Source: Verrucomicrobia bacterium UBA4286
Lineage (GTDB): Bacteria; Verrucomicrobiota; Kiritimatiellia; RFP12; UBA1067
DNA: 17,872 bases
Direction of reading: 5' to 3'
NCBI GenBank assembly: GCA_002395905.1
Contig: DGVK01000082.1
Location: 477-18,348 of the forward strand
Within the stretch, counting starts at the first letter, position 1. Each line of letters begins with the position of its first letter. This document shows positions 4,757 to 17,400 of the stretch, in pieces. A model generated the notes under the pieces. It saw only the letters and a list, made by a program, of their open reading frames with translations. It made no database searches and was not told where the DNA came from. A program made the translations under genes and the position numbers.

Positions 4757-7012
4757 CTACAGGCTGGCGAACGGGTTGCACGAAAAGCCCGAGCCAGAGG
4801 ACGGCGCGAACGAAGTGCGTCTTGACGGCCCTCGCGCTCTCGACGCTCCTGCGACCGCGCCTGCGGCAGAGATCGCGCCCGCCCCGGCTGTCGGATGTGT
4901 CTTCGCCGAAAGTGAAATCCTGCCGCGCGCGCGGTCGACGCCGATTACAGTGACCTTGAGCCTGTCGCCCGCTTTCACGACGCTTGCAGGGTCGGTAACG
5001 AAATTGTCGCTAAGCTCCGAGACGTGCACGAGGCCGTCCTGATGGACTCCTATGTCGACGAACGCGCCGAAAGCGGTGACGTTGGTCACGACGCCTTCGA
5101 GCTTCATTCCTTCTTTAACATCCTCTATCTTCGTGACATCGTCGCGGAACTTCGGCGGCTCGAAGACCGCGCGCGGGTCGCGTCCAGGTTTGACCAGTTC
5201 GGCGACGATATCCTTCAAAGTGGGTTCGCCGACGTCATCGGTTATGTAGCGCCTCACGTCTATCTTCTTTGCTGCGGCGGCGTTGCCGACGAGCTGTGCG
5301 ACAGACATCCCCGCGTCGGCCGCCATCCTGTCGACAAGCGCATATCTTTCGGGATGCACCGCCGAAGCGTCGAGCGGATTCGCCGCGCCGCGTATCCTCA
5401 GAAAGCCTGCGCACTGTTCGAATGCCTTCGCGCCGAGGCCTTTCACCTTTTTCAGGTCTTCGCGGGAGCGGAACTTGCCGTTTTCGTTGCGCCATTCGAC
5501 GATGGCCTTTGCGAGGGACGGGCTCACGCCCGAAACGCGCTCTAGAAGGGGGGCGCTTGCGGTGTTGAGTTCCACGCCCACGCCGTTCACGCAGCTCACG
5601 ACGACCTCGTCGAGCTTTGCGCCGAGAAGCGGCTGGTGCACGTCGTGCTGGTACTGGCCGACGCCTATCGCCTTCGGGTCGACCTTCACCAGTTCGGCGA
5701 GAGGATCCTGCAGTCTGCGCCCGATGGAGATCGCGCCGCGCACGGTGAGATCGAGGTCGGGGAATTCCTTGCGCGCGATTTCGCTCGCCGAATATACCGA
5801 GGCTCCCGCCTCGCTCACGCTCACCACCATCGGCGTCGGTATCTCGGGGTGCTGTTCGTGCAGACGCTTGAGCGTCTGGCGCACGAACGACTCGGTTTCT
5901 CGGCCGGCGGTGCCGTTCCCGACGGCGACGGCTTCCGGACGGTACTTGTTCACGATCATCGCGAGAGCCTTGGCCGATTCGTCCGGCTTCTGCTGCGGGA
6001 AGATGACGGTCTTGCCGAGGTATTTGCCTGTCGCGTCCATCATCGCGACCTTGCAGCCGGTTCTTATGCCCGGGTCGATGGCCAGCACAGCCTTTTCTCC
6101 GAGCGGGCTTGCAAGAAGCAGGTGGCGCAGATTCTCGGCGAACACTTCGACTGCGGCGCGGTCGGCCGACATCTTCTTCTCGACGGTAACGTCTATTTCA
6201 CAGCTAGGCGCGAGCAGGCGCTTGTATGCGTCTTCGGCGGCCGTCTCGATCTGCATCACGGCTGGATCGTCCTTTGAGGCGGTCACGCCGCGCGCCTTTT
6301 CTACGAGAGTCATCATGTCCTCGATGACAGGCTTGGAGTCCAAGGCGAGCTTCACCCAGAGAACACCCTCCTTCTGTCCGCGCCTTATCGCGAGATAGCG
6401 ATGGCTCGGAATTGAGGCGACAGGTTCCTCGAAGTCGTAATACTGCTCGAACTTCGTGGGTTCCGTCGGCCTGGGGCTGGCGACCTCGCTCTTCACGACG
6501 CCCTTTGTCGCGAACGCCTGGCGCACGAGCCCGCGCACCTCTGCCATGTCGGCGATGCGCTCAGCGAGAATGTCGCGCGCGAACTGCAGGTCCTCTTCGC
6601 CCGCCTCGAACGGTTCGCCGCGCCAGATTGCATCGGCGAGAGGCTCGAAGCCTTTTTCCTTCGCGATCTGCGCGCGCGTGCGGCGCTTGGGCTTGTAGGG
6701 CTGGTAAAGGTCTTCAAGGGCGCTCTTCTGCCAGCAGTCGGCAATCTTGCCGCGCAGCTCGTCGGTAAGCTTTCCCTGTTCATCGATTGATTTGAGAATC
6801 GTATCCTTGCGCGCTTCAAGTTCGGAGTAGTATTCGAGGCGGTCTTTTATCTTGCCGATCGCCACCTCGTCGAGATTGCCGTGGGCCTCCTTGCGGTAGC
6901 GGGCGATGAAAGGAACGGTGCTGCCGTCGGCGAGAAGCTTTTCCACCGCCGCGACCTGCCTGGAAGTTGCGCCGACTTCGGCGACAATTCTGTTTAGTGC
7001 TTCAGAGTTCAT
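4757..7012 (-). CDS. tex: Tex-family RNA-binding transcription accessory protein
   Basis: 751 residues from the ATG at 7012, close to the 770-780 usual for Tex. Tex binds nucleic acid and associates with the transcription machinery. Domains in order: helical N-terminal part with VPFIARYRKE (33-42) and DLYQPYKPKRRTRA (101-114); YqgF/RuvC-like domain with AIDPGIRTGCK (311-321) and GNGTAGRETE (365-374); helix-hairpin-helix domain with LNTAS (482-486) and GLGAKAFEQCAGFLRI (525-540); S1 domain (about 632-704) with GMKLEGVVTNVTAFGAFVDI and LVHVSEL. A low-complexity Ala/Ser/Gly tail (705-751) follows. An ATG four codons upstream (7024) lies inside the TATAAT box and cannot be transcribed from that promoter, so 7012 is preferred. 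There is no Shine-Dalgarno sequence. The gene is monocistronic and divergent from rubrerythrin. Confidence 0.95.
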   Translation of the reverse strand: MNSEALNRIVAEVGATSRQVAAVEKLLADGSTVPFIARYRKEAHGNLDEVAIGKIKDRLEYYSELEARKDTILKSIDEQGKLTDELRGKIADCWQKSALEDLYQPYKPKRRTRAQIAKEKGFEPLADAIWRGEPFEAGEEDLQFARDILAERIADMAEVRGLVRQAFATKGVVKSEVASPRPTEPTKFEQYYDFEEPVASIPSHRYLAIRRGQKEGVLWVKLALDSKPVIEDMMTLVEKARGVTASKDDPAVMQIETAAEDAYKRLLAPSCEIDVTVEKKMSADRAAVEVFAENLRHLLLASPLGEKAVLAIDPGIRTGCKVAMMDATGKYLGKTVIFPQQKPDESAKALAMIVNKYRPEAVAVGNGTAGRETESFVRQTLKRLHEQHPEIPTPMVVSVSEAGASVYSASEIARKEFPDLDLTVRGAISIGRRLQDPLAELVKVDPKAIGVGQYQHDVHQPLLGAKLDEVVVSCVNGVGVELNTASAPLLERVSGVSPSLAKAIVEWRNENGKFRSREDLKKVKGLGAKAFEQCAGFLRIRGAANPLDASAVHPERYALVDRMAADAGMSVAQLVGNAAAAKKIDVRRYITDDVGEPTLKDIVAELVKPGRDPRAVFEPPKFRDDVTKIEDVKEGMKLEGVVTNVTAFGAFVDIGVHQDGLVHVSELSDNFVTDPASVVKAGDRLKVTVIGVDRARGRISLSAKTHPTAGAGAISAAGAVAGASRARGPSRRTSFAPSSGSGFSCNPFASL

Positions 7013-7030
7013 CAGGCCGCACATTATACC
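7012..7030 (-). promoter_or_regulatory. Extended -10 promoter of tex, near-leaderless
   Basis: On the minus strand, TATGGTATAAT is present with TATAAT at 7028-7023 and TGG just before it. Ten bases separate the box from ATG 7012. If transcription starts about 7 nt past the box, the leader is only 3-4 nt. No convincing -35 was seen at the usual distance, which fits an extended -10 promoter. Confidence 0.72.
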
Positions 7031-7140
7031 ATATTTTGTGCCGTATGGCCGGACTGCGCCCTATAAGTAGTCTCAGGCGGCGTGCCGAGCCAACGCGGAC
7101 GTTCTTTCGGCTTCTGGCGCCGCGCGGCAGGGAGCGGATG
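7031..7140. other. Divergent tex / rubrerythrin intergenic region with two short palindromes
   Basis: This stretch holds no gene. An imperfect palindrome, GCCGA-gcc-AACG-cgga-CGTT-ctt-TCGGC, occupies 7084-7111, and a perfect 10-base palindrome GCCGCGCGGC lies at 7119-7128, where the -35 of the rubrerythrin promoter would fall. Either could be an operator for a regulator of oxidative-stress genes, but short GC-rich palindromes are common by chance in such DNA. Confidence 0.3.
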
Positions 7141-7145
7141 TTTTT

Positions 7146-7153
7146 GGTATAAT
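7146..7153 (+). promoter_or_regulatory. Extended -10 promoter of rubrerythrin
   Basis: TTGGTATAAT, with the TATAAT hexamer at 7148-7153 and TGG directly upstream. It leaves 47 nt to the ATG, so the transcript has a leader of about 40 nt. No clear -35 is visible 16-18 nt upstream; a GC palindrome lies there instead. Confidence 0.75.
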
Positions 7154-7186
7154 ATCGTCGCAAACAAACCACTGGAAACCAACAGC

Positions 7187-7193
7187 AAAGGAG
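7187..7193 (+). promoter_or_regulatory. Strong Shine-Dalgarno site of rubrerythrin
   Basis: AAAGGAG lies 7 nt before ATG 7201, in an A-rich leader. It contrasts with the neighbouring xseB and tex starts, which lack such a site. Confidence 0.85.
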
Positions 7194-7200
7194 TCGGTAA

Positions 7201-7734
7201 ATGGAACTCAAAGGATCAAAGACGGAGAAAAACCTCATGGCGGCGTTCGCCGGAGAATCGCAGGCTCGCAACAAGTACGACTACTTCGCCTCGCGCGCGA
7301 AGAAGGACGGCTACGAGCAGATTGCAGCGATTTTCCAGGAGACCGCGCTTAACGAGAAGGAGCACGCCAAGCTATGGTTCAAGGAGCTCGGCGGCATCGG
7401 CGACACCCCTGCGAATCTTCTCGCGGCGGCGGCGGGCGAGCACGAGGAATGGACCGGTATGTACAAGCGTTTCTCCGAGGAGGCCAAGGCCGAGGGCTTC
7501 GACCGCCTCGCCGATCTCTTCGCGAAGGTCGCGGAGATCGAACGGCATCACGAAGAGCGCTACCGCAAGCTCGCCGGAAACATCGAGACGGGCGAGGTCT
7601 GGGTGAGAATAGGTGTCAACCGCTGGCAGTGCCGCAACTGCGGCGCGATCGTCGAAGGCGAGAAAGCCCCCGAGCTTTGTCCCGTCTGCGCCCACCCCAA
7701 GGCCTACTTCCAGGTGGAGCCGCAAAACTACTGA
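7201..7734 (+). CDS. rbr: Rubrerythrin (diiron peroxidase)
   Basis: 177 residues, normal length for classical rubrerythrin: a cytoplasmic protein that reduces hydrogen peroxide in anaerobes using a diiron site fed by a rubredoxin-like iron centre. The four-helix domain carries the ligand motifs GESQARNKY (Glu19), NEKEHAK (Glu52, His55), GEHEEW (Glu80, Glu83) and [10 protein letters not shown] (Glu114, His117). The C-terminal rubredoxin-like domain has CRNCG (Cys144, Cys147) and CPVC (Cys160, Cys163), all ligands present. It has its own promoter and a strong Shine-Dalgarno site and appears to be monocistronic, since xseB has its own promoter 30 nt after the stop. Its presence suggests an anaerobic or microaerophilic host exposed to transient oxidants. 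Confidence 0.96.
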
Positions 7735-7740
7735 CGGCGT

Positions 7741-7777
7741 TTGAACGGTCGGCGGAGTTATGGTATAATAGCCGCCG
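7741..7777 (+). promoter_or_regulatory. Promoter of the xseB operon, leaderless architecture
   Basis: This is the most complete promoter in the window: TTGAAC at 7741-7746 as -35, a 17-nt spacer, and ATGGTATAAT with TATAAT at 7764-7769. Only 8 nt separate the box from ATG 7778. An in-frame TAG (7769-7771) overlaps the box and no other start codon lies between, so translation must start at 7778, at or within about 1-2 nt of the predicted transcript 5' end. Confidence 0.82.
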
Positions 7778-7981
7778 ATGAAATTCGAAGACAACCTTGC
7801 CAAGCTTGAGGAGACTGTCCGCAAAATGGAGTCGGGCGAGCTTTCGCTCGACGACATGATCGTCTCTTTCGAGGAGGGCCGCAAACTGGTCGAGGCGTGC
7901 ACGCGCGATCTCGAGGCAATACGGCTTCGCATAGAAAAGGTGACCAGGGACGGCGCCGCCGTAGAGGAGATGAAACTGTGA
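7778..7981 (+). CDS. xseB: Exodeoxyribonuclease VII small subunit
   Basis: 67 residues, the normal XseB size. XseB binds the catalytic XseA subunit; the complex degrades single-stranded DNA to oligonucleotides. The characteristic pattern is intact: FEDNLAKLEETVRKMESGEL (3-22), LDDMIVSFEEG (24-34) and the helix to about 55, forming a predicted helical hairpin. There is no xseA next to it in the window, so the catalytic partner must be encoded elsewhere. It is the first gene of an operon with a GHKL ATPase, gltA and hrpB, and its stop overlaps the next start (GTGA). It lacks a Shine-Dalgarno sequence and is probably translated from a leaderless mRNA. Confidence 0.95.
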   Translation: MKFEDNLAKLEETVRKMESGELSLDDMIVSFEEGRKLVEACTRDLEAIRLRIEKVTRDGAAVEEMKL

Positions 7982-9141
7982 GCCGTATCATCCATGTGCA
8001 GGCGCAGGCCGACCACATAGAGTCGCTTTCAAAGGCGGCTCCGCTCGCCGCCGTCGAGGAGCTCGTCTGGAACGCGCTCGACGCCGATGCGCGCGAGGTG
8101 AGGGTCGATCTGGTGACGAACGCGCTGGGAGCGGTTGAGGCCGTGCGCGTCGCCGACGACGGCAACGGCATAGACGTGCTCAGCGCCGACGCGACATTCG
8201 GTTCGCTTGGCGGCAGCTGGAAGCGCGGCATATCCGAGACTGCGCACGCCCGCCGCAGACTGCACGGCCGTCACGGGCGCGGCCGCTTCAAGTCGTTCGC
8301 GCTCGGCGGACATGTCGAGTGGCGAACGACGACGCGCTCCGGCGGCGGCCTCACGTCTTATGTTATCTCAGGCGACATCATGAATCCGGGCGAGTTCGCG
8401 CTTGACGTCGAGCTCCAGCCGGGACCTGCGACAGGCACAGAGGTCTTCATCTCCAACGTTAGGGCCAATTGCGATTCTCTTCTCAACGCTGTCGAGACGG
8501 TGCAGTCGCTAGCCGCGCGTTTCGCGCTGTATCTCAAGAGCTATCCCGACGTACGGATATATTTCAACGGGCTTCCCGTTACGCCTGTCGTGGTGCAGAA
8601 GAAGACGACCGACTACCGCCTGACGCTGGAGAACGGCGCCGAGGCGAAGCTTGAAATCATCGAATGGAAGCGCCGCTTCGTCGGCGCGGGGCGTATCGTC
8701 TTCGCCGGGCCGGACGGTTTCGAACTCCACGAGCAGCCGGCGGGAGTGCGCACAGGCGGCGCGAGCTTCACCGCCTACCTCGTCTCGCCGCGATTCCCCG
8801 CCCTCGCTGCGGAGAACGCACTCGTCATGGACGAGCTCAACCCCGAGGTTAGGATGTATCTCGACGCCGCGAAGAAGATCATCCGCTCCCACTTCGTCGC
8901 GCTCGGCGACGCGCTCGCCTCTGGCAGGCGCGCGGGCTGGGTGGAGGAGGGAAGCTACCCGTTCGACCCGAAGGACGGCTCGCCAGAGGCAAAGCGCTTC
9001 GAGACGCTGTCGGTCGAGCTGTCGGACAGAATGGAGTCCTTCACCGAGCTTTCTGCGGCGGAACGCAGCATTGTATTCAGCCTTCTGAAGCGCGCGATGG
9101 CCACGGTTAAGCGCGGAGGAATAAAGGAGTTTCTTAAATGA
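7978..9141 (+). CDS. Short GHKL-fold ATPase (HSP90/MutL/MORC-like ATP-binding protein), role unknown
   Basis: 387 residues from GTG 7978, which overlaps the xseB stop and has GAGGAG upstream. The N-terminal part is a GHKL ATP-binding domain: N-box VEELVWNALDADA (26-38) with Glu28 and Asn32, G1 box VADDGNGID (58-66), a lid region FGSLGGSWK (74-82) and the glycine-rich GRHGRGRFKSFALGG (97-111), then TGTEVFISNV (152-161). A second domain (about 165-280) looks like the S5-fold transducer domain of this superfamily, followed by a helical tail with YPFDPKDGSPEAKRF (327-341). The GSWK and GRGRFKSFALG pattern resembles larger bacterial MORC-like ATP-binding proteins, which as I remember them continue well past this point; this one stops after the helical tail, with no endonuclease or DNA-binding domain seen. 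Its stop overlaps gltA (ATGA). The neighbours (xseB, hrpB) would fit a nucleic-acid role, but that is only context. Confidence 0.82.
   Translation: MSRIIHVQAQADHIESLSKAAPLAAVEELVWNALDADAREVRVDLVTNALGAVEAVRVADDGNGIDVLSADATFGSLGGSWKRGISETAHARRRLHGRHGRGRFKSFALGGHVEWRTTTRSGGGLTSYVISGDIMNPGEFALDVELQPGPATGTEVFISNVRANCDSLLNAVETVQSLAARFALYLKSYPDVRIYFNGLPVTPVVVQKKTTDYRLTLENGAEAKLEIIEWKRRFVGAGRIVFAGPDGFELHEQPAGVRTGGASFTAYLVSPRFPALAAENALVMDELNPEVRMYLDAAKKIIRSHFVALGDALASGRRAGWVEEGSYPFDPKDGSPEAKRFETLSVELSDRMESFTELSAAERSIVFSLLKRAMATVKRGGIKEFLK
9123..9129 (+). promoter_or_regulatory. Strong Shine-Dalgarno site for gltA inside the preceding gene
   Basis: AAAGGAG ends 8 nt before ATG 9138 and lies within the last codons of the GHKL ATPase gene, allowing independent as well as coupled initiation. 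Confidence 0.85.
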
Positions 9142-10493
9142 TAGACAAAGAGTGGCTCAAGCATCATGCCGACATGGTCCGCACGGCGGATTTCATCGAT
9201 CCGGCTCTCTACACTAAATACGGCGTCAAGCGCGGCCTTAGAAACGAGGACGGTTCCGGCGTGCTGGTAGGCCTCACGACGATAGGCAACGTCCACGGCT
9301 ACGTGATGAGCGAAGGCGAGAAACTCGCCGTCGAGGGCGAGCTTTATTATAGAGGCATCAACGTCAAGGATATAGTCGCCGCCGACAAGCGCGAGCACCG
9401 CTTCGGCTACGAAGAGACGGCTTATCTGCTCTTGTTCGGTGTCCTGCCGACGCCGCGCGAGCTCGTCGTGTGGAAAGACCGCCTCGGCTTCTACCGCAGG
9501 CTTTCCGACGGGTTCAAGGAGAATGCGATTTTCCGCAATCCGTCGAAGGACATAATGAACGCCATCGCGCGCGCCGTCCTCTTCGCCTACGCTTTCGACG
9601 AGACGGGCAATCCGGACGACCTCGCCCTTGAGAAGTGCCTCAACCAGTCCGTCGAGCTTATCGGCGCGCTGCCGACGATAGCGGCATACGCCTACCAGGC
9701 CAAGGCCCACTACCACCGCGGCCAGTCGCTGCTCATCCGCAATCCCGACCCGAAGAAGTCGACGGCCGAGAACATCCTTTCGCTCATCCGCGAAGACGGG
9801 CGCTACACAAAGCTCGAGGCCGAGACGCTCGACCTCGCGCTCATCCTCCACGCCGAGCACGGCGGAGGCAACAACTCTTCGTTCGTGACGCACGTCGTCA
9901 CGAGTTCGTTCACCGACATCTATTCGTCGATCGCGGCGTCGATACTTTCGCTCAAAGGCTCCCGCCACGGCGGCGCGAACCTGCGCGTCATGCGCCAGAT
10001 GGACGAGATAAAGAAGAATGTCAAGGACTGGCGCAATCCGAACCAGGTCGTCAACTACCTTGAGAAGATCGCCGACAGACGCGCAGGCGACAGGACGGGG
10101 CTTATCTACGGCCTCGGCCACGCGGTCTACACGATAAGCGATCCTCGTGCGCAGCTTCTCAGGAAGAAGGCGCGCGAGCTCGCCCGCGAGAAGCGCCGCA
10201 TGGACGAGATGAGGCTTTTCGAGACTGTCGAGGAGCGCGGCCCTGCGGTGATCAAGGCGCGCCATCCGCGCGCCGAGGACGTGTGCGCTAACGTCGACCT
10301 GTATTCCGGCTTCGTCTACGACATGCTCGGGATCCCGAAGGATCTCTACACGCCGCTCTTCGCCGTTGCGCGCTGCGTGAGCTGGTGCGCCCACCGCATG
10401 GAGGAGCTTATCAACAACGGGCCGATCATCCGTCCGGCGTACAAGCCCATCTACAGGCCCAGGCAGTACGTCGCGCTCAAGGACCGCCGCTGA
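9138..10493 (+). CDS. gltA: Citrate synthase family protein (citrate/2-methylcitrate synthase)
   Basis: 451 residues. Citrate synthases condense oxaloacetate with acetyl-CoA; close relatives use propionyl-CoA. The catalytic triad is visible: His241 in LHAEHGGGNN (237-246), His328 in GLGHAVYTISDPRA (325-338) and Asp387 in ANVDLYSGFV (384-393). GSRHGGAN (274-281) and ELYYRG (68-73) are further family motifs. The long N-terminus and the insertion around 345-380 place it with the roughly 450-residue form common in anaerobes rather than the E. coli type. The allosteric NADH features cannot be judged. It starts by an ATGA overlap after a strong Shine-Dalgarno sequence, in an operon with DNA/RNA-related genes, so the context says nothing about its pathway. 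Citrate versus methylcitrate activity cannot be decided from the sequence. Confidence 0.94.
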   Translation: MIDKEWLKHHADMVRTADFIDPALYTKYGVKRGLRNEDGSGVLVGLTTIGNVHGYVMSEGEKLAVEGELYYRGINVKDIVAADKREHRFGYEETAYLLLFGVLPTPRELVVWKDRLGFYRRLSDGFKENAIFRNPSKDIMNAIARAVLFAYAFDETGNPDDLALEKCLNQSVELIGALPTIAAYAYQAKAHYHRGQSLLIRNPDPKKSTAENILSLIREDGRYTKLEAETLDLALILHAEHGGGNNSSFVTHVVTSSFTDIYSSIAASILSLKGSRHGGANLRVMRQMDEIKKNVKDWRNPNQVVNYLEKIADRRAGDRTGLIYGLGHAVYTISDPRAQLLRKKARELAREKRRMDEMRLFETVEERGPAVIKARHPRAEDVCANVDLYSGFVYDMLGIPKDLYTPLFAVARCVSWCAHRMEELINNGPIIRPAYKPIYRPRQYVALKDRR

Positions 10494-10507
10494 AAACGGC
10501 GCGGCGC

Positions 10508-12895
10508 ATGTTTCCCGCCGAGGAGAGGATTGGCGACGTGCGCCGCGCGCTTGCGCGGAACCGGTGCGCCGTGCTTACTGCGCCGCCCGGGAGCGGCAAG
10601 ACCACCTGCATCCCTCCTGCGCTTCTGGACGAGCCGTGGCTTGAAGGGCGGAAGATCGTCATGCTTGAACCGCGCCGCCTCGCGGCGCGCTCTTGCGCAG
10701 GTTATATCGCCTCGCGCCTCGGCGAACCGGTCGGCGCGACCGTCGGCTACCAGGTGAGGCTTGAGAGGAAGACCGGCCCTGCGACACGCCTTGAGATCGT
10801 GACGGAAGGGCTCCTCGCGCAGCGTCTCGTGGCGGACCCCGAGCTTTCGGATACAGGCCTTGTGATCTTCGACGAGTTCCACGAGCGCTCGCTCGCGTGC
10901 GACCTCGCCTTCGCGCTCGCGCTCGAATCGAGAAGGGCGCTCAGGCCCGACCTGCGGCTTCTTGTGATGTCCGCCACGCTCGACGCCGACGAAGTCGCCG
11001 CGCACATCGGCGACGCCGATGTGGTTCGCGCCGAGGGGCGCATGTTCCCGGTCGAGACGCGCTATCTGGGCGAGACGTCGATGGCCGCGGCGGTCTCGCG
11101 CGCGGCGAAGGAGACTTCCGGCGACATGCTGTGCTTCCTGCCTGGCGAGGGCGAGATACGCCGTGCGGCGGAGGCTGTAGAGGCGTCGCATCCCGAACTG
11201 GCCGTGCTGCCTCTCTACGGCGCTCTGCCAAAGGAGGCGCAGGACGCCGTCTTCGCGCCGTGCGCAAGACGCAAGGTGGTGCTCGCGACTTCAATCGCCG
11301 AGACTTCGCTCACAATACCCGGCATAACGTGCGTCGTTGATTCTGGGCTTATGCGCGTCCCGCGGTTCTCGCCCGCGACCGGCATGAGCGGACTCGTCAC
11401 GCTGCCTCTCACGCGCGACCGCGCCGAGCAGCGCCGCGGCCGAGCCGGTCGGCTCATGCCGGGCGTGTGCTACCGGCTCTGGGACGAAGGCGCCGACATG
11501 CATCGTCCCGCGCGGATGACTCCCGAGATTCTCGACGCCGATCTCGCGTCTCTCGTCCTTACGAGCGCGGTGTGGGGCGCCGTGAGACGGTGTGACCTGC
11601 CCTGGATGACGCCTCCGCCGGCCGGCGCATGGGACCAGGCGGCCGGGCTTCTCTCGGCGCTCGGCGCGATAGACGGGAGCGGCAGGCCTACGCCCAAAGG
11701 CGAGGCGATGGCCCGCCTCGCCATGCACCCGCGTCTGGCGAACATGATGATCGGCGCCGGCGGCGGTGATGATGCGGCGTGCCTCGCGGCCATAGTCGAG
11801 GAGGGCGTGCGCGGACGCGAAACCGACATACGCAAAGTAATGGACGAGGTTCGCGAAACTCCGAACAGACCTTTCTCGAAACGCATCCTCGCGCTTGCGA
11901 AGAGGTTCGCCGCCGCGCGCACCGGCGCGCCGCGGCGCGAAGACCTTTCGGAGGGCGCTCTGCTCGCACTTGCGTATCCCGACCGCATCGCAAGGAACCG
12001 CGGCAATGGAACGTTTCGCATGGTCTCGGGACGCGGCGCGGCGCTGGACCGGACGGACGCGCTCGCGAAGTCGCCGTTCGTCGTCTGCTGCGAGCTGGAC
12101 GACCGGCAGGGCGACGCGAAGGTGTTTCTGGCGTGTCCGATAGAAGAGGCCGAGGTGGAGCGGCTGTTTGCGGAAAAGATCGTCGAGGAGCCGCTTTGCG
12201 AATGGGACCGGCAGAACGAGCGTGTGAAGTGCGTGGTCCGGCGCAGGCTTGGCGGGATGGCGCTCGGCGAGGCGCCTGTCTCGGCGCAGGGCGACGACGG
12301 TCGGGTCGCGGCGGCGATGCTCGACGGCGTGAGGCAGAAGGGCGCGGCCAACCTGCCGTGCTGGACGAAGGAGACGCTTCAGATGAAAGCGCGGATGGAC
12401 TTCCTCTCCAGAACTCTCGGCTGGCCGCAGGTGACGGACGGCAGTGTGATCGATGCGCTTTCGGGCTTTGTCGGCGGCATGACGAAATGGCGCGACCTTG
12501 AGCGGGTCGACATGTCGCGCGTGATGGACGTCGTCCTCGCCGGCGCCGGGCACGATCGCCGCGAACTCGACCGCCTCGCGCCGACGCGCATGGAGGTGCC
12601 GAGCGGCAGTCACATGCTTATACACTACGAGGGCGACGAGCCGACTGTGGAAGTCAGGCTGCAGGAGTGCTTCGGGCTTATGGAGACGCCGAAGGTCGCT
12701 GGCGGGCGTGTGCCTGTTGTCATGACGCTTCTTTCGCCCGCGCAGAGGCCGGTACAGGTGACGAAAGACCTCGCCGGATTCTGGCGGGAAGGGTATCAGC
12801 TTGTGCGCAAGGACATGCGCGGCCGCTACCCGAAACACTACTGGCCGGAGGACCCTTTCACGGCCGTCGCGACGCGCCGCGTCCGCCCGAAGTGA
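10508..12895 (+). CDS. hrpB: ATP-dependent RNA helicase HrpB
   Basis: 795 residues from ATG 10508, a typical HrpB length (about 800-840). Superfamily 2 DEAH-type helicase motifs in order: Walker A APPGSGKTT (25-33), MLEPRRLAAR (52-61), TEGLL (99-103), DEFHER (122-127; HrpB proteins commonly have DEFH), SATLDA (155-160), LPLYGALP and ATSIAETSLTIPG in the second RecA domain, and QRRGRAGR as motif VI. The helicase-associated domain and the HrpB C-terminal region, including HYEGDEP and the final RGRYPKHYWPEDP, are intact, the latter being a hallmark of HrpB. No role in the cell is firmly known for most HrpB proteins. It follows gltA by 14 nt with no clear Shine-Dalgarno sequence, so translation may rely on ribosomes arriving from gltA. 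Confidence 0.95.
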   Translation: MFPAEERIGDVRRALARNRCAVLTAPPGSGKTTCIPPALLDEPWLEGRKIVMLEPRRLAARSCAGYIASRLGEPVGATVGYQVRLERKTGPATRLEIVTEGLLAQRLVADPELSDTGLVIFDEFHERSLACDLAFALALESRRALRPDLRLLVMSATLDADEVAAHIGDADVVRAEGRMFPVETRYLGETSMAAAVSRAAKETSGDMLCFLPGEGEIRRAAEAVEASHPELAVLPLYGALPKEAQDAVFAPCARRKVVLATSIAETSLTIPGITCVVDSGLMRVPRFSPATGMSGLVTLPLTRDRAEQRRGRAGRLMPGVCYRLWDEGADMHRPARMTPEILDADLASLVLTSAVWGAVRRCDLPWMTPPPAGAWDQAAGLLSALGAIDGSGRPTPKGEAMARLAMHPRLANMMIGAGGGDDAACLAAIVEEGVRGRETDIRKVMDEVRETPNRPFSKRILALAKRFAAARTGAPRREDLSEGALLALAYPDRIARNRGNGTFRMVSGRGAALDRTDALAKSPFVVCCELDDRQGDAKVFLACPIEEAEVERLFAEKIVEEPLCEWDRQNERVKCVVRRRLGGMALGEAPVSAQGDDGRVAAAMLDGVRQKGAANLPCWTKETLQMKARMDFLSRTLGWPQVTDGSVIDALSGFVGGMTKWRDLERVDMSRVMDVVLAGAGHDRRELDRLAPTRMEVPSGSHMLIHYEGDEPTVEVRLQECFGLMETPKVAGGRVPVVMTLLSPAQRPVQVTKDLAGFWREGYQLVRKDMRGRYPKHYWPEDPFTAVATRRVRPK

Positions 12896-12917
12896 GCGCT
12901 GCGCGGCCGGGGAATTT

Positions 12918-12934
12918 GATATAATGTGAACGCT
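12918..12934 (+). promoter_or_regulatory. Promoter of pgpA, leaderless architecture
   Basis: TTTGATATAAT, with the hexamer at 12920-12925. It ends 9 nt before ATG 12935 and 12 nt before a second in-frame ATG (12938). An in-frame TGA (12917-12919) lies directly upstream of the box. The only other start codon is GTG 12926, immediately after the box and thus upstream of the expected transcription start. No Shine-Dalgarno sequence and no good -35. Confidence 0.7.
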
Positions 12935-13411
12935 ATGATGAAGAAAGCATTTTCAAAGTTCACGCTTTTTCTCGCGACGGGATGCGGGATAAGCCTCTTC
13001 GTGCCGTTCGCGCCCGGGACGTTCGGTTCGCTGCCTGGCGTCGCGCTCGCCTACGCGACGGCGCTGCTGCCGCCGTGGGCGCAGATTCCGCTGTGTCTCG
13101 CGCTCGCGCTTCTCGCGGTGCCGGTCTGCGGCTCGGCCGAAAGGCAGCTCGGCATACGCGACGACGGCCGCATCTCTGCGGACGAATGGATGCTTTTCCC
13201 GATAGCGACAGTGGCCCTGCCGCTGCACTCGCTTCCTTGGTGGTCGATGGCGGTGTTCTTCATTGTCGTGCGCTTCTTCGATATAATCAAGCCGCCGCCC
13301 GCCAAAGGACTGCAGTCGCTTCCCGGCGGACGCGGAATAGTCGTCGACGATCTTGTCGCGAATCTCTACGCGCTCGGTGTGAACTGGCTGATATTCTCCG
13401 CCGTCATGTAG
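12935..13411 (+). CDS. pgpA: Phosphatidylglycerophosphatase A
   Basis: 158 residues, usual PgpA size. The inner-membrane enzyme removes phosphate from phosphatidylglycerol phosphate, giving phosphatidylglycerol. Family motifs: PGTFGSLPGVALAY (27-40), SADEW (81-85), RFFDIIKPPPAKGLQSLPGG (113-132) and GIVVDDLVANLYA (134-146), with hydrophobic helices between them. The position of SADEW corresponds to the DE pair usually written IVIDE in this family, here slightly diverged. I choose ATG 12935 because the promoter box ends at 12925; ATG 12938 is equally possible. The last 8 nt overlap the end of the convergent AraC-type gene. It probably stands alone, as hrpB upstream ends before the promoter. 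Confidence 0.93.
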   Translation: MMKKAFSKFTLFLATGCGISLFVPFAPGTFGSLPGVALAYATALLPPWAQIPLCLALALLAVPVCGSAERQLGIRDDGRISADEWMLFPIATVALPLHSLPWWSMAVFFIVVRFFDIIKPPPAKGLQSLPGGRGIVVDDLVANLYALGVNWLIFSAVM

Positions 13412-14342
13412 CACGTCCGTCGCGGAACTGCCGCGGCGACATGTCGCAGTGCTGGCGGAATTGCATTGTAAGGTGGCGCGGCGACGCGAAGCCGAGGTCG
13501 CGCGCGATTTTGGCGATGCGGTCGTCCGTGTCGCGCAGCCGCCGTCTGGCCTCCTCTATCCGGCATGAAACGATGAATGCGTGAGGGGGGAGTCCCGTCG
13601 CCTGCTTGAAGAGGAACGAGAAACGGCTTTCGCTGAGCGCCGCGCGGCGCGCCAGTTCGTCGATCGATGCCGTCTGCGCCGGGTTTCTGCGGATGTCGGC
13701 GATCACGTCCATAAGCCGTCGGTTCGCGTGTTCTTCGCCTGCTTCGCCGCGTTCTGCGCAGGCGATTATGACAAGCAGGATCATAAGCGCGATGGACTTG
13801 AGCTTGATGGTCCTGAACGCTCCGCGCGGCTCCGTGTTGCATACCGCGAAAAGGTTCTGGAACAGTTGCTTGAGGCGCGAGTCCGCCGGGAAGCGGCACT
13901 TGTCTATCGCCGCGAGACGCCTGCACAGCAGGTCGGATTCTTTCTGCGAGAGCCCCAGCACCGGCGTTCCGCGCCGTGCCGGATATTTGAACAGCAGCCA
14001 GAAGTGTCGCTGGCCGCGCCGACGCTCCACGAGGTGGTGCGCAACTTTCGGCTGGGTGAGGAACACGTCGCCCGGCATACAGCGGAACTCTCCAGACTCG
14101 GTCGCGAAGGTGAGCGAGCCGCGCAGACAGTAGTGGACCTCGATGCAGCCCGGGTGGACATGCATAGGGAAGTTCGCGCGCAGGAAGTTGATGTGCGACT
14201 GCCCTACGCCTGCGATGCACTCCAGACCGTCCTGCGCGAGCGAAAAGAGGTGCATTTCGTTCGAAGCGCCGAGATTGCTCTTGGAGCTGACCGCTCTGCG
14301 CCCGCCGGCTTTCGCGTACGGAAACTCTGGTTTGTCGTTCAT
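13404..14342 (-). CDS. AraC-family transcriptional regulator with cupin sensor domain
   Basis: 312 residues. The N-terminal half is an AraC-type cupin ligand-binding domain: FPMHVHPGCIEVHYCLRGSL (58-77, with the HxH pattern) and CMPGDVFLTQPKVAHHL (88-104). The C-terminal half is the two-helix-turn-helix DNA-binding domain: SIDELARRAALSESRFSFLF (226-245), then the linker helix and IAKIARDLGFASPRHLTMQF (276-295), ending in the family signature MSPRQFR (301-307). Such regulators often activate sugar-use genes when bound to a sugar. The gene is divergent from the large secreted LamG protein, sharing a 109-nt intergenic region, so that gene is the first candidate target (inference). The start is fixed by an in-frame TAA inside the promoter box. 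Confidence 0.93.
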   Translation of the reverse strand: MNDKPEFPYAKAGGRRAVSSKSNLGASNEMHLFSLAQDGLECIAGVGQSHINFLRANFPMHVHPGCIEVHYCLRGSLTFATESGEFRCMPGDVFLTQPKVAHHLVERRRGQRHFWLLFKYPARRGTPVLGLSQKESDLLCRRLAAIDKCRFPADSRLKQLFQNLFAVCNTEPRGAFRTIKLKSIALMILLVIIACAERGEAGEEHANRRLMDVIADIRRNPAQTASIDELARRAALSESRFSFLFKQATGLPPHAFIVSCRIEEARRRLRDTDDRIAKIARDLGFASPRHLTMQFRQHCDMSPRQFRDGRAT

Positions 14343-14379
14343 GGTGTGGCATTATATACCATCCGGCGGAAAAAGTCCA
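14343..14379 (-). promoter_or_regulatory. Promoter of the araC-type gene, leaderless architecture
   Basis: On the minus strand, GGATGGTATATAAT ends in TATAAT at 14356-14351, 8 nt from ATG 14342. A TGGACT at 14379-14374, 17 nt upstream of the hexamer, is a partial match to a -35. An in-frame TAA (14354-14352) within the box rules out any earlier start, and no Shine-Dalgarno sequence fits in the 8 nt. Confidence 0.78.
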
Positions 14380-14415: not shown

Positions 14416-14424
14416 TGGTATAAT
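14416..14424 (+). promoter_or_regulatory. Extended -10 promoter of the secreted LamG protein
   Basis: TTATGGTATAAT, hexamer at 14419-14424, nearly identical to the xseB and tex boxes. It lies 27 nt before ATG 14452, leaving a leader of about 20 nt that carries an AAGGAA Shine-Dalgarno site (14438-14443, 8 nt from ATG). No strong -35 was seen, in keeping with an activator-dependent promoter. Confidence 0.78.
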
Positions 14425-14451
14425 GAAGTCACAAAGGAAGGAACTGCCAAA

Positions 14452-17400
14452 ATGAAAGCCATCTCTGGAAAGCTTCTCGCCGCCAGCGCGCGTCTTTCGG
14501 TCGCTGCGCTGGTCTGTTCATTCGCCTCCGCAGCATATGCGGGAGTGAAGTATTGGGACAACCCCGACTTCAAGGCATACGATGTCGGCGACTACGTGCA
14601 GGACGGACTCGTCCTCCACTACGACGGCATTCGCAACGTCGGCGCAGACGCGGAGCATTCGACGACTTCCGACACCTGGGTGAACCTGGCGTCTGACGGC
14701 TCCCTTCCGCTCACTTGGTGCAGCTGGATTTCATCAAACTCCAAATTCCAGAGAGTTCGAAACGACACGACCCAAGGAACTTGGGAAGAAGACGGCTTCC
14801 ATTTCGACGGACGGTCGGTCTTTGCGACCGAGGAGTCGTCAAACCTGTTCTCGCTTCCCGAGACCTACACGATGCAGTTCACGATGACAGCCGACTTGTC
14901 GGAGGCAACCGGGACAGACGGGTCTGGATACCTTTTTAGGCCAGGAAAGGACTGGAGTCAGGGTGGCGTTGCCGTTCGAAATACGGCAAACGGAAGCGTA
15001 ACTCCGGAAAATGCAGTCTACGTAGTTGACAACGCCCGCTTCAACACCAATAACACGCGCCCGAATTTCGCAGACGACACGCCGCGCTACGCGACGGTTC
15101 TAGGTACTTCCGCATCCCTAGCCTGCTTTGACGGTACCTCTATTCCGGCAGTTGGAACAGCCTATACGGACTCCTGCCGAGCCAACGTCAATGCACGCGC
15201 CGCACATGCCAACAACTGGATTGCCTTTGGCGCGCAGTACTACAATTCTAACCAGACAGGCACTACGCGCGATACCATTAAAGATATTCAGGGCTTCAAT
15301 GGCACACTCCATGCCATTCGCTATTACAGCAAAGCGCTCTCTGCGAACGACCTCGCGTGGAACCGCGTGGTTGACCAGAACCGCTTCTTCGGAGAGTCCG
15401 CTCCGATTCCTGTGACGAACATCGTTGTTGCTACGGCTGTCGAGGGCGTTGATGGCGACCAGCCCTGCGGCGCATACGCGCTCGACGCGGAAGGCTTCAC
15501 CTTCACCGCACCCGCCCAGCGGACAATCAAGGGCAAGCGGTATGTCCTGAACGGCTATACCATCGAAACGTGGAATGGTTCCGATTGGGGCGCGGCGGTC
15601 GAGTACGCCGTAAATTCCTACGATGCAACATCGGCGGGCAAGGTTCGTCTCACTTGGCGATATGAGCGCCCGGCAGGAGAAGGACAGCTCGCGACCTACG
15701 GTCTTGGCGACTACGTGACGGACGGACTTCTCCTTCACTACGACGGCATCTGCAATGTAGGCGCAAATGCCGCGCACGACTCTGCCGCGCATCAGTGGAA
15801 GAACATCGCTCCCGGCTACGAGAGTCGGTGGCCGATGGACTGGTGCTCCTACACGGAAAGCAGCGCCAACAACTATGCGTGGCATCGTAATGATTATACG
15901 CAGGGCGCGTGGACGGACGATGGCTTTGCCTTCAACGGAAAAGGTTATTTCGCCAAGTGGAATGATGGCGACCCGTTTGCCATCCCCGCAAATTTCACAG
16001 TTCAAATTTCGGTGACAGGCGCGATTGCCGACCAACTCGGCGACCCCGACTATCTTTGGACAGGTCAGCACGGATGGAGCTACGGCAGCGTCGCGATGCG
16101 CAAGTCGAACAACAGCGCCGCGAACGGCAACGCCAACAGCGTCTACTACGTGAACTCGACCGTCCACCCGGACGCCCGCCCCAACTTCTATCCGGTGGGC
16201 GCAAGGCCGTCCTACGTGACCGTGATAGCCGATTACGACGACACCAAGACCACCTACATCTTCGACGGCACCGCGCGGCCGGCAGCCGGCGGCACAGACG
16301 CCCCGGCCATCACTGGCTTATCCCCGGCGACCAACCAGACCTGGTTCAGCGTCGGCGGATTCCATGGCCGGACGGGAACGGCTGCCAACCTTCAGAGCTT
16401 CAATGGAACAGTCCACAACTTCCGTTTCTACAACCGCGCCCTGACAGATGCCGAAGTCGCGCAGAACCGCAAGGTCGACGAATACCGGTACTTCGGGCGC
16501 TACGCCGAACCGAACGTCATTGTCCAATCGACCTACTCCTACCTCGAAGGCTACGACAAGTGCGGCGGCTACGAGGTCGTGGACTCCTACACCTTCGCCG
16601 CGCCGGAGACGGTGACGGCGAAGGATATCAAATACGAATGTGTTGGCTACACAGTTGAAACGCAGGATGCGAACGGAAATTGGGGTGCGGCGGTTGGTTA
16701 TGAGGGCTGCTCATACAAATACACAGCCGGATCTGGAACAGTCCGCCTCACCTGGAAGTGGAAGGCGACGCAAGGCCTTCGCACCGCCTCGGACTACGAC
16801 TTCGACGACTACTCGCCCGCCGGGCTCCGTCTCCACTACGACGGAAAACTCAACGCCGGCGTCGGCGTGGCGCACAGCACGACCGCCTCGAAGTGGGTCA
16901 ACGTCGGTTCGGGCGGAGACTACTACAACATGAGCCTCACCAAGGGTGACGACGACAGCGCCTGGGCGTCGGACGGCTATGCCTTCGGCGGCAAGAGCAA
17001 GTTCATGACGGCGGTCTCGAACGTCTGGAACCGGACCTATACGGAGCAGACCGTTCTGGATGCCCTCTATGCCGATAACACGGCGGGCAATGGCGAGAAC
17101 TACGTCTATTCCTCCGCTTGGAGCAAAATGGCGCTGGTTGTCTGCGGCACCTCCAATCCCAAGACAGTCTGGTTCCACACGCAGGGGCTTGAATCCCACG
17201 CTCAAATGCCGCATGTCGCCAACGCGGATGCAGAGCGCTTCACCTACGTGACGACGATGCTGGACGACGCCGAGCGCACTGCGACCGTGTTCACGGGGAC
17301 CGAGCCGCCGACCGGAGGAACCATCGCGGACGGATATCTGGAGCGGTCGTCGATGGCCGATGCCCACGTCGGCAAGCTGGCCCTCGGCGGCTGGGGCGGC

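Follow-up and report, generated by a model that had tools for sequence, protein, structure and literature searches.

Leaderless initiation is established but uncommon, and it is known mainly from Actinobacteria, Deinococcus and archaea. Leaderless genes with a TA-like signal approximately 10 bp upstream of the start are described by Zheng et al. (2011) in 207 of 953 bacterial genomes, with a loose TAnnnT in high-GC groups, and a word search of the main text of that paper returns no mention of Verrucomicrobia, Akkermansia or Opitutus (PMC3160421). In Akkermansia muciniphila, 10% of the transcription start sites (TSS) mapped by Cappable-seq lie at the annotated gene start, with YR at -1/+1 (Ettwiller et al. 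2016, PMC4782308). In Deinococcus-Thermus, a -10 motif adjoins about 30% of the ORFs throughout the phylum, and genes with an RBS occur alongside (PMC12340547).

A comparison of these systems with the locus described here, which lies in a window of 17,872 nt (the whole stretch of DNA analysed) from Verrucomicrobia bacterium UBA4286, reveals both similarities and differences. The leaderless genes of Zheng et al. share the box distance, the lack of a Shine-Dalgarno (SD) sequence and the substantial share of genes, whereas the full TATAAT with an extended -10 is present here at 60% GC in place of the loose TAnnnT (PMC3160421). A. muciniphila belongs to the same phylum in the GTDB sense and also has leaderless TSS, but it is a member of another class, and its TSS are measured whereas those discussed here are predicted from sequence (PMC4782308). 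Deinococcus-Thermus likewise combines a -10 region adjoining the ORF with RBS genes; however, the pattern is phylum-wide there and belongs to part of one order here (PMC12340547). Leaderless genes themselves are already a known kind, and the present case is a further lineage.

Candidate promoters and start codons in the window

The candidate -10 boxes, the start codons and two leadered genes of the window are as follows.

7028-7023, minus strand: tex candidate -10 box TATAAT, with TATGG directly before it (extended -10)
7012-7010, minus strand: tex start codon ATG, 10 nt from the box, placed by homologues and the Tex_N position
7764-7769, plus strand: xseB candidate -10 box TATAAT, with TTATGG before it and an in-frame stop TAG at 7769-7771
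7778-7780, plus strand: xseB start codon ATG, 8 nt from the box; Exonuc_VII_S covers residues 3-54
12920-12925, plus strand: pgpA candidate -10 box TATAAT, with TTTGA before it
12935-12937, plus strand: pgpA start codon ATG, 9 nt from the box; a second ATG at 12938
14356-14351, minus strand: candidate -10 box TATAAT of the AraC-type regulator, TGGTATATAAT, with an in-frame stop TAA within the box
14342-14340, minus strand: start codon ATG of the AraC-type regulator (araC), 8 nt from the box
7148-7153, plus strand: leadered contrast, rubrerythrin TGGTATAAT, 47 nt to the ATG at 7201, SD AAAGGAG at 7187-7193
14419-14424, plus strand: leadered contrast, LamG-domain protein TGGTATAAT, 27 nt to the ATG at 14452, SD-like AAGGAAGGA at 14434-14442

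The gene identities in the window are upheld by Pfam, and the positions of the four boxes and their distances from the start codons agree with the preliminary description. The further claim that no earlier start is possible for xseB, araC and pgpA holds insofar as all three in-frame stops are present (in pgpA it is TGA at 12917-12919, upstream of the box). In pgpA, however, an earlier start is permitted on paper by a GTG in frame at 12926-12928, between the box and the ATG; this GTG abuts the box and is therefore not transcribable from it. In tex, the gene caller picks another in-frame ATG as the start, at 7024-7022, which shares bases with the box (TATAATG). The ATG at 7012 is favoured by the homologues L051, L052 and L053, which have an ATG at the aligned codon (L051 has an additional in-frame start three codons earlier), and by the Tex_N domain, which starts at residue 5. 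A later start of xseB would cut its Exonuc_VII_S domain. The TGG of araC lies two bases too far upstream for the strict extended -10 register, so this box does not count as an extended -10 in that sense.

The window contains nine TATAAT compared with 0.85 in shuffles, and composition alone predicts 0.002 at 6-11 nt from its 14 called starts. Additionally, the rubrerythrin and LamG-domain genes provide an internal contrast, with a leader and an SD sequence behind the same TGGTATAAT; the preliminary description is silent on both.

Spacing, SD sequences and the promoter element across the genome

A lack of genome-wide TATAAT enrichment at this distance had been named in the preliminary description as evidence against leaderless transcription, and the opposite is seen. 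The genome sequence (2.37 Mb, 60% GC) was scanned with each pattern and its reversal as a control. TATAATN{6,12}ATG is found 220 times compared with 17 for the control, and the extended box TGNTATAAT followed by 6-9 nt and ATG (pattern TGNTATAATN{6,9}ATG) is found 148 times compared with 0. The counts are 314 and 5 for TGNTATAATN{0,30}ATG, and 17 and 2 for the extended-box pattern with GTG in place of ATG. TATAATN{13,19}ATG is likewise above its control (69 compared with 7), partly owing to second ATGs behind a first.

The spacing was then measured in 456 genes called in 61 stretches, which make up 28.8% of the genome and comprise the window, 20 stretches from contigs already seen in the pattern-match list and 40 taken by number. 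The start calls are blind to promoter and SD, and in one stretch of E. coli the caller recovered 30 of the 44 typed starts. A strict TATAAT lies 6-11 nt from the start in 37 genes (peak at 8 nt), at 12-21 nt in none and at 22-110 nt in 37; the 189 genes from the by-number contigs alone give 11, 0 and 13. The peak and the empty zone would place +1 at the start codon, as expected of leaderless genes, and 37 of 76 strict boxes within 110 nt upstream stand at the leaderless distance. The share of genes with a near box is higher in the window and the match-list stretches (34/267) than in the by-number stretches (14/189). With the same pipeline, none of 164 E. coli genes has a strict TATAAT at 6-11 nt.

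An SD sequence is present in 2 of 48 near-box genes and in 37 of 65 distant-box genes (Fisher p 1.2e-9); the shuffled expectation for near-box genes is 7%. The absence is partly forced because the box fills the SD zone. A pyrimidine occupies -1 in 36/48 near-box compared with 24/65 distant-box genes (Fisher p 6.5e-5), which matches the expectation for +1 at the start codon (initiator YR at -1/+1), and ATG is the start codon in 94% of the 48 near-box genes. Among leadered genes, SD sequences reach 57% compared with 29% in shuffles. The anti-SD CCTCC is intact in the 16S of the order-mates L151-L154 and in that of L155, from the genus-mate G289; no 16S was found in the MAG itself. L155 is 79-81% identical to L151-L154, which are 83-90% identical to one another, and it may be misbinned. 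A Bacteroidota-like, SD-free lineage was considered and rejected, given the excess of SD over shuffles in leadered genes and the intact anti-SD in relatives.

The extended -10 T(A/T)TGGTATAAT is common to the near-box and distant-box classes, and TG stands one base before TATAAT in 33/37 strict near and 28/30 strict distant boxes. A TTGACA with at least four matches at 15-19 nt accompanies 10/37 near (shuffle mean 5.6) and 10/30 distant boxes (4.5), and one with at least five matches accompanies three promoters of each class (shuffles 0.6 and 0.5, respectively). The -35 is thus weak rather than absent and is seen in a minority of both classes; its complete absence, a first impression from the logo, was dropped after this match count. 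Extended -10 promoters of sigma-70/sigma-A have the form TRTGnTATAAT. The element described here resembles them in both the position of TG and the weak -35, and differs in that it looks dominant for leaderless and leadered genes alike.

Transcription starts and alternative readings

The explanation that best fits these data, with a probability of approximately 0.86, is that the four boxes are -10 promoters, mostly extended, with +1 at or within ~4 bases of the start codon, and that leaderless translation exists side by side with a second mode. The leaderless interpretation of the preliminary description gains support from the genome-wide enrichment, the bimodal spacing, the loss of SD, the pyrimidine at -1 and the use of ATG. 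We infer the exact +1 positions and the translation route as follows. RNA polymerase would start on the start codon or no more than about four bases from it, which would leave the mRNA of near-box genes without room for an SD sequence, so that it would be translated as leaderless mRNA; the 5'-terminal AUG would probably be recognised by ribosomes loaded with initiator tRNA. The same promoter element would serve two modes, leaderless (box at 6-11 nt, no SD) and leadered (box at 22 nt or more, mostly SD).

It is possible, if doubtful, that +1 lies 1-5 nt upstream of the ATG, which would make the mRNAs SD-free and not strictly leaderless. The spacer in the genus peaks at 7-8 nt rather than 6, with a minor group at 11 nt (7/48 genes), and a +1 six nt behind the box leaves 1-5 nt. 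However, the pyrimidine at -1 makes the A of the start codon a suitable +1, and in G026, a genome of the sister family, the spacer is exactly 6-7 nt in 41 of the 96 cases listed. A distance of 6-7 nt is the textbook spacing from -10 to +1.

Wrongly called starts, with true translation starts further downstream behind ordinary leaders with SD, are very improbable. Start calls from coding score alone are imperfect, as the E. coli stretch indicates, and in 6 of 10 near-box genes scanned (10 of the 14 in by-number stretches) no Pfam domain begins before residue 33, which leaves the start unfixed by the domain. However, in the remaining four a domain begins at residue 2, 5, 8 or 13, in line with the N-terminal domains of xseB and tex, and a downstream in-frame ATG or GTG with an SD within 25 codons is present in only 2/48 near-box genes, below the 8/65 of leadered genes. 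The domain and homologue support for part of the genes suggests that the ATG or GTG lies at the true N-terminus.

It is just as improbable that the A/T-rich motif is a translational signal, for example a site for ribosomal protein S1, rather than a promoter. An A/T bias at -20 to -10 has been proposed as such a signal in some phyla (PMC5397173), and the motif occupies this zone in place of an SD. Against a translational role stand the perfect match to TATAAT together with the TG of an extended -10, and the presence of the same 11-mer before leadered genes, among them the two of the window that carry this element in addition to an SD. Finally, chance or base composition, in whose favour nothing was found beyond the frequency of the ATG triplet and the fact that TATAAT can itself end in ATG, is refuted by the zero count of the reversed control, the empty zone and the 60% GC of the genome.

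Distribution among relatives and significance

To measure the pattern in the clade, the ratio N6-12/N13-19 of TATAAT to ATG was calculated for 288 genomes, and a ratio of at least 1.8 was counted as a signal. The ratio is 3.19 in the genome of the window (G000) and about 3 in its genus. A signal is present in 5/6 genomes of the genus (G000 included), 3/8 of the other genera of the family, 8/10 of f2 and 2/5 of f4 (14/4 and 23/12, both with fewer than 40 matches), and in none of the two genomes of f3 or the 22 of f36.g56; the strong cases are the genus itself, a further two genera of its family and one sister family. In other orders of the class, 0/49 genomes reach 1.8, plus 3/17 rows with small counts (4/1, 11/6 and 11/6), and elsewhere in the phylum 2/169 do so (18/8 and 23/8, with reversed controls of the first number of 18 and 11). 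No genome outside the order with at least 40 matches shows the signal, and all are below 3.19. This survey rules out phylum-wide leaderless use. The pattern is confined to parts of one order, so the "major mode in the lineage" of the preliminary description has to be narrowed to these and does not extend to the class or phylum.

The presumed assignment to Kiritimatiellota fits the nearest tex relatives, which are MAGs titled Kiritimatiellae, Verrucomicrobia, Lentisphaerae or uncultured bacterium, many of them from ruminant guts. A ratio of at least 1.8 is found in 30/34 named MAGs close in tex, and G183/L057 (1.60), L106, L104 and L086 fall below it despite their place in the near group. Among the tex relatives, 8/78 have a near box. 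In G026 (68% GC), gene calls are unreliable (1/185 near-box) and only the pattern listing was used, in which 30/35 distant-box cases have an SD-like motif. In the thin samples of called genes from G203 and G282, 10/158 (with two strict boxes at 12-17 nt) and 9/235 are near-box, respectively; small first samples gave 1/52 for G282, 3/34 for G259 and 3/64 for G051.

Leaderless or near-leaderless (0-4 nt) transcription as a major mode beside SD translation is the best reading of these results. Somewhat favoured, in addition, is a broader reading in which leaderless transcription has risen to a main mode in one order of gut Kiritimatiellae with SD kept: it would serve about half of the near-consensus promoters (37/76), with an extended -10 and little -35, the spacing would be tuned to 6-7 nt in the sister family, and tex-like genes seem to switch modes. 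Because the signal is missing from some of the sister genera and sister families, its gain or loss is datable. In practical terms, starts may be misplaced by gene finders that look for an SD, and TATGGTATAAT-N7-ATG fusions could be used in reporter designs for such uncultured rumen bacteria. A further leaderless lineage, with signal-free close relatives and SD still in use, would offer a natural series on how and why genes switch their mode of expression.

Boxes and start codons in the window

The preliminary description placed TATAAT 8-10 nt before four ATGs, those of tex, xseB, pgpA and an AraC-type regulator gene, and read the boxes as promoters of leaderless genes; every coordinate is correct, the gene identities are given by Pfam, and both the observation and the main reading are upheld. 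The window contains 9 TATAAT, versus 0.85 in shuffles, and four of the six that lie upstream of window genes fall within one 6-nt zone of 110 nt (binomial p 1.2e-4). The alternative codons and remaining boxes are as follows.

7024: in-frame ATG of tex, overlapping the tex box
12917-12919: in-frame stop of pgpA, preceding the box
12926: in-frame GTG of pgpA, between box and ATG
7148-7153: rubrerythrin box, TGGTATAAT, 47 nt from the start at 7201; Shine-Dalgarno (SD)-like sequence present
14419-14424: box of a LamG-domain gene, TGGTATAAT, 27 nt from the start at 14452; SD-like sequence present
9346, minus strand: intragenic TATAAT
13282, plus strand: intragenic TATAAT
15893, minus strand: intragenic TATAAT

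An earlier start had been held impossible for pgpA; the stop before the box is indeed present, but a possible start codon, the GTG, does lie between the box and the ATG. Neither this GTG nor the tex ATG at 7024 could be transcribed as a start from its own box, and the tex codon aligned with 7012 is ATG in three relatives (L051, L052 and L053). The rubrerythrin and LamG-domain genes provide a contrast within the window, in that the same TGGTATAAT stands at a larger distance from the start.

Spacing and properties of near-box genes

The genome-wide enrichment of TATAAT near ATGs, proposed as a check, is observed in the MAG of the window (2,374,221 bases, 237 contigs, 82.6% complete; window on contig C33), in counts that include second ATGs behind one and the same box: TATAATN{6,12}ATG occurs 220 times versus 17 for the reversed pattern, TATAATN{13,19}ATG 69 versus 7, TGNTATAATN{0,30}ATG 314 versus 5, TGNTATAATN{6,9}ATG 148 versus 0, and the form with GTG instead of ATG 17 versus 2. 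One of the matches, TATAATN7ATG at 15893-15898 on the minus strand, is antisense within the LamG-domain gene and is probably due to chance.

Spacing was examined in the window and 60 further stretches, together 683,586 bases or 28.8% of the genome. They contain 507 genes, of which 456 have 120 nt upstream; starts were assigned from the coding score and the type of start codon and nothing else. Among the 456 genes, strict TATAAT lies 6-11 nt from the start in 37 (peak at 8), at 12-21 nt in none, at 22-110 nt in 37 and at 0-5 nt in 2. The first 20 stretches came from contigs already in the hit list, which is a bias; the other 40 were picked by contig number (three numbers, already taken, were passed over), and their 189 genes give 11, 0 and 13 at 6-11, 12-21 and 22-110 nt. 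The near-box share is 34/267 in the first set plus window versus 14/189 in the by-number set, or 38/258 versus 13/188 after retraining of the caller. In E. coli K-12, the same pipeline finds strict TATAAT at 6-11 nt in 0/164.

The 48 near-box genes, which exclude tex because the start caller chose 7024, begin with ATG in 94% of cases. An SD is present in 2 of them (shuffle 7%) versus 37 of the 65 distant-box genes, with the box at least 22 nt away (shuffle 29%); its absence from the near class is partly forced, as the box is in the way. A pyrimidine occupies -1 in 36/48 versus 24/65, and an SD-led start follows within 25 codons downstream in 2/48 versus 8/65. No alternative in-frame start exists back to the previous stop in 34/48 (120 nt examined). 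Additionally, Pfam scanning of 10 of the 14 near-box genes in by-number stretches placed a tRNA synthetase class I W/Y domain from residue 2, Rnf-Nqr from residue 5, TPP enzyme from residue 8 and KDPG aldolase from residue 13, in one gene each, and first domains at residue 33 or beyond in the other 6.

Promoters aligned on TATAAT read T(A/T)TGGTATAATA in both classes (37 near and 31 distant strict cases), and the extended TG is found in 83% of the 48 near-box genes. The -35 element is weak: at least 4 matches to TTGACA at 15-19 nt occur in 10/37 near cases versus 5.6 shuffled, and in 10/30 distant cases versus 4.5. To judge from the sampled genes, an extended -10 of the form T(A/T)TGGTATAATA with a weak -35 may be the house-keeping promoter of the genus.

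Distribution among relatives and SD use

The ratio of TATAATN{6,12}ATG to TATAATN{13,19}ATG was compared over 288 genomes of the phylum, the upper value serving as median for even numbers. Own-genus genomes (6) have a median of 3.06, and those of the family's other genera (8) have one of 1.56 (2.6-2.7 in g2 and g7, 0.90 in one other genus). Further medians are 2.64 in family f2 (10), 1.07 in family f4 (5), 1.13 in f36.g56 (22) and 0.95 in other orders of the class (49); two f3 genomes give 1.12 and 0.82, and 17 small-count rows of the class sum to 131/147. The 169 other phylum rows sum to 19295/21140, and 0 of the 136 among them with at least 40 hits reach 1.8. Named relatives, for which 48 of 80 loci were used, reach at least 1.8 in 30/34 MAGs close in tex (L051-L106; titled Kiritimatiellae, Verrucomicrobia, Lentisphaerae or uncultured bacterium) and in 1/14 more distant ones. 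The latter is L128 (RGIG10146, yak rumen; 2.58, 178/69), outside the near tex group, possibly a separate gain or a misplaced branch. The excess is absent from G259 (own family, genus g6; 45% GC in sample; 422/470), possibly through loss.

In G026, of sister family f2, the arrangement is tighter than in the own genus: in most cases TGCTATAAT is followed by a spacer of 6-7 nt, and the ATG is preceded by C. The 96 listed TGNTATAATN{0,30}ATG matches have a spacer of 6 in 22, 7 in 19 and 8-18 in 14, with a second group at 19-30. At spacers of 6-9, a pyrimidine is at -1 in 43/45; at 18 or more without an ATG at 6-9, an SD-like motif occurs in 30/35, by a looser motif set searched over the entire leader. 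Two further relatives, G203 and G282, have near-box calls in 10/158 and 9/235 genes and likewise lose the SD, in small numbers. Single genes seem to switch between modes: where the start region of tex can be read (78 loci), a near box is present in 8 and an SD-like motif in 30 of the rest.

SD motifs of leadered genes exceed shuffles, and SD use persists beside near-box genes. The own MAG has no 16S; GGATCACCTCCTTTC is the 16S end in four order-mates (L151-L154) and in L155, from genus-mate G289, which may be misbinned, since it is 79-81% identical to these four and they are 83-90% identical among themselves.

Proposed mode of expression

The usual spacing from box to +1 is 6-8 nt, on which the inferred +1 is based. 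Most likely, the extended -10 promoter starts transcription at the start codon or at most 4 bases from it, and the resulting leaderless mRNA is then translated. Following established background and PMC10783764, a ribosome with initiator tRNA would meet the 5' AUG. A YR preference at the TSS is described for all species analysed in PMC4782308.

Leaderless genes were reported in 207/953 bacterial genomes (Zheng 2011, PMC3160421), where a word search of the main text found no mention of Verrucomicrobia. PMC12340547 describes a Deinococcus-Thermus case and a domain-wide scan that may include this phylum. In PMC10783764, one table of anti-SD types includes Kiritimatiellae, and Akkermansia is called SD-scarce; in sections of this paper and of PMC5397173, no report of leaderless genes in Kiritimatiellota was found. 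Searches of the open-licence literature for leaderless genes in Kiritimatiellota or the PVC superphylum, and for a TSS or promoter in this group, found none among the papers so covered. The nearest measured precedent is the 10% of leaderless TSS in Akkermansia muciniphila (PMC4782308). The finding extends an already known mode of gene expression to one more lineage and does not constitute a new mode.
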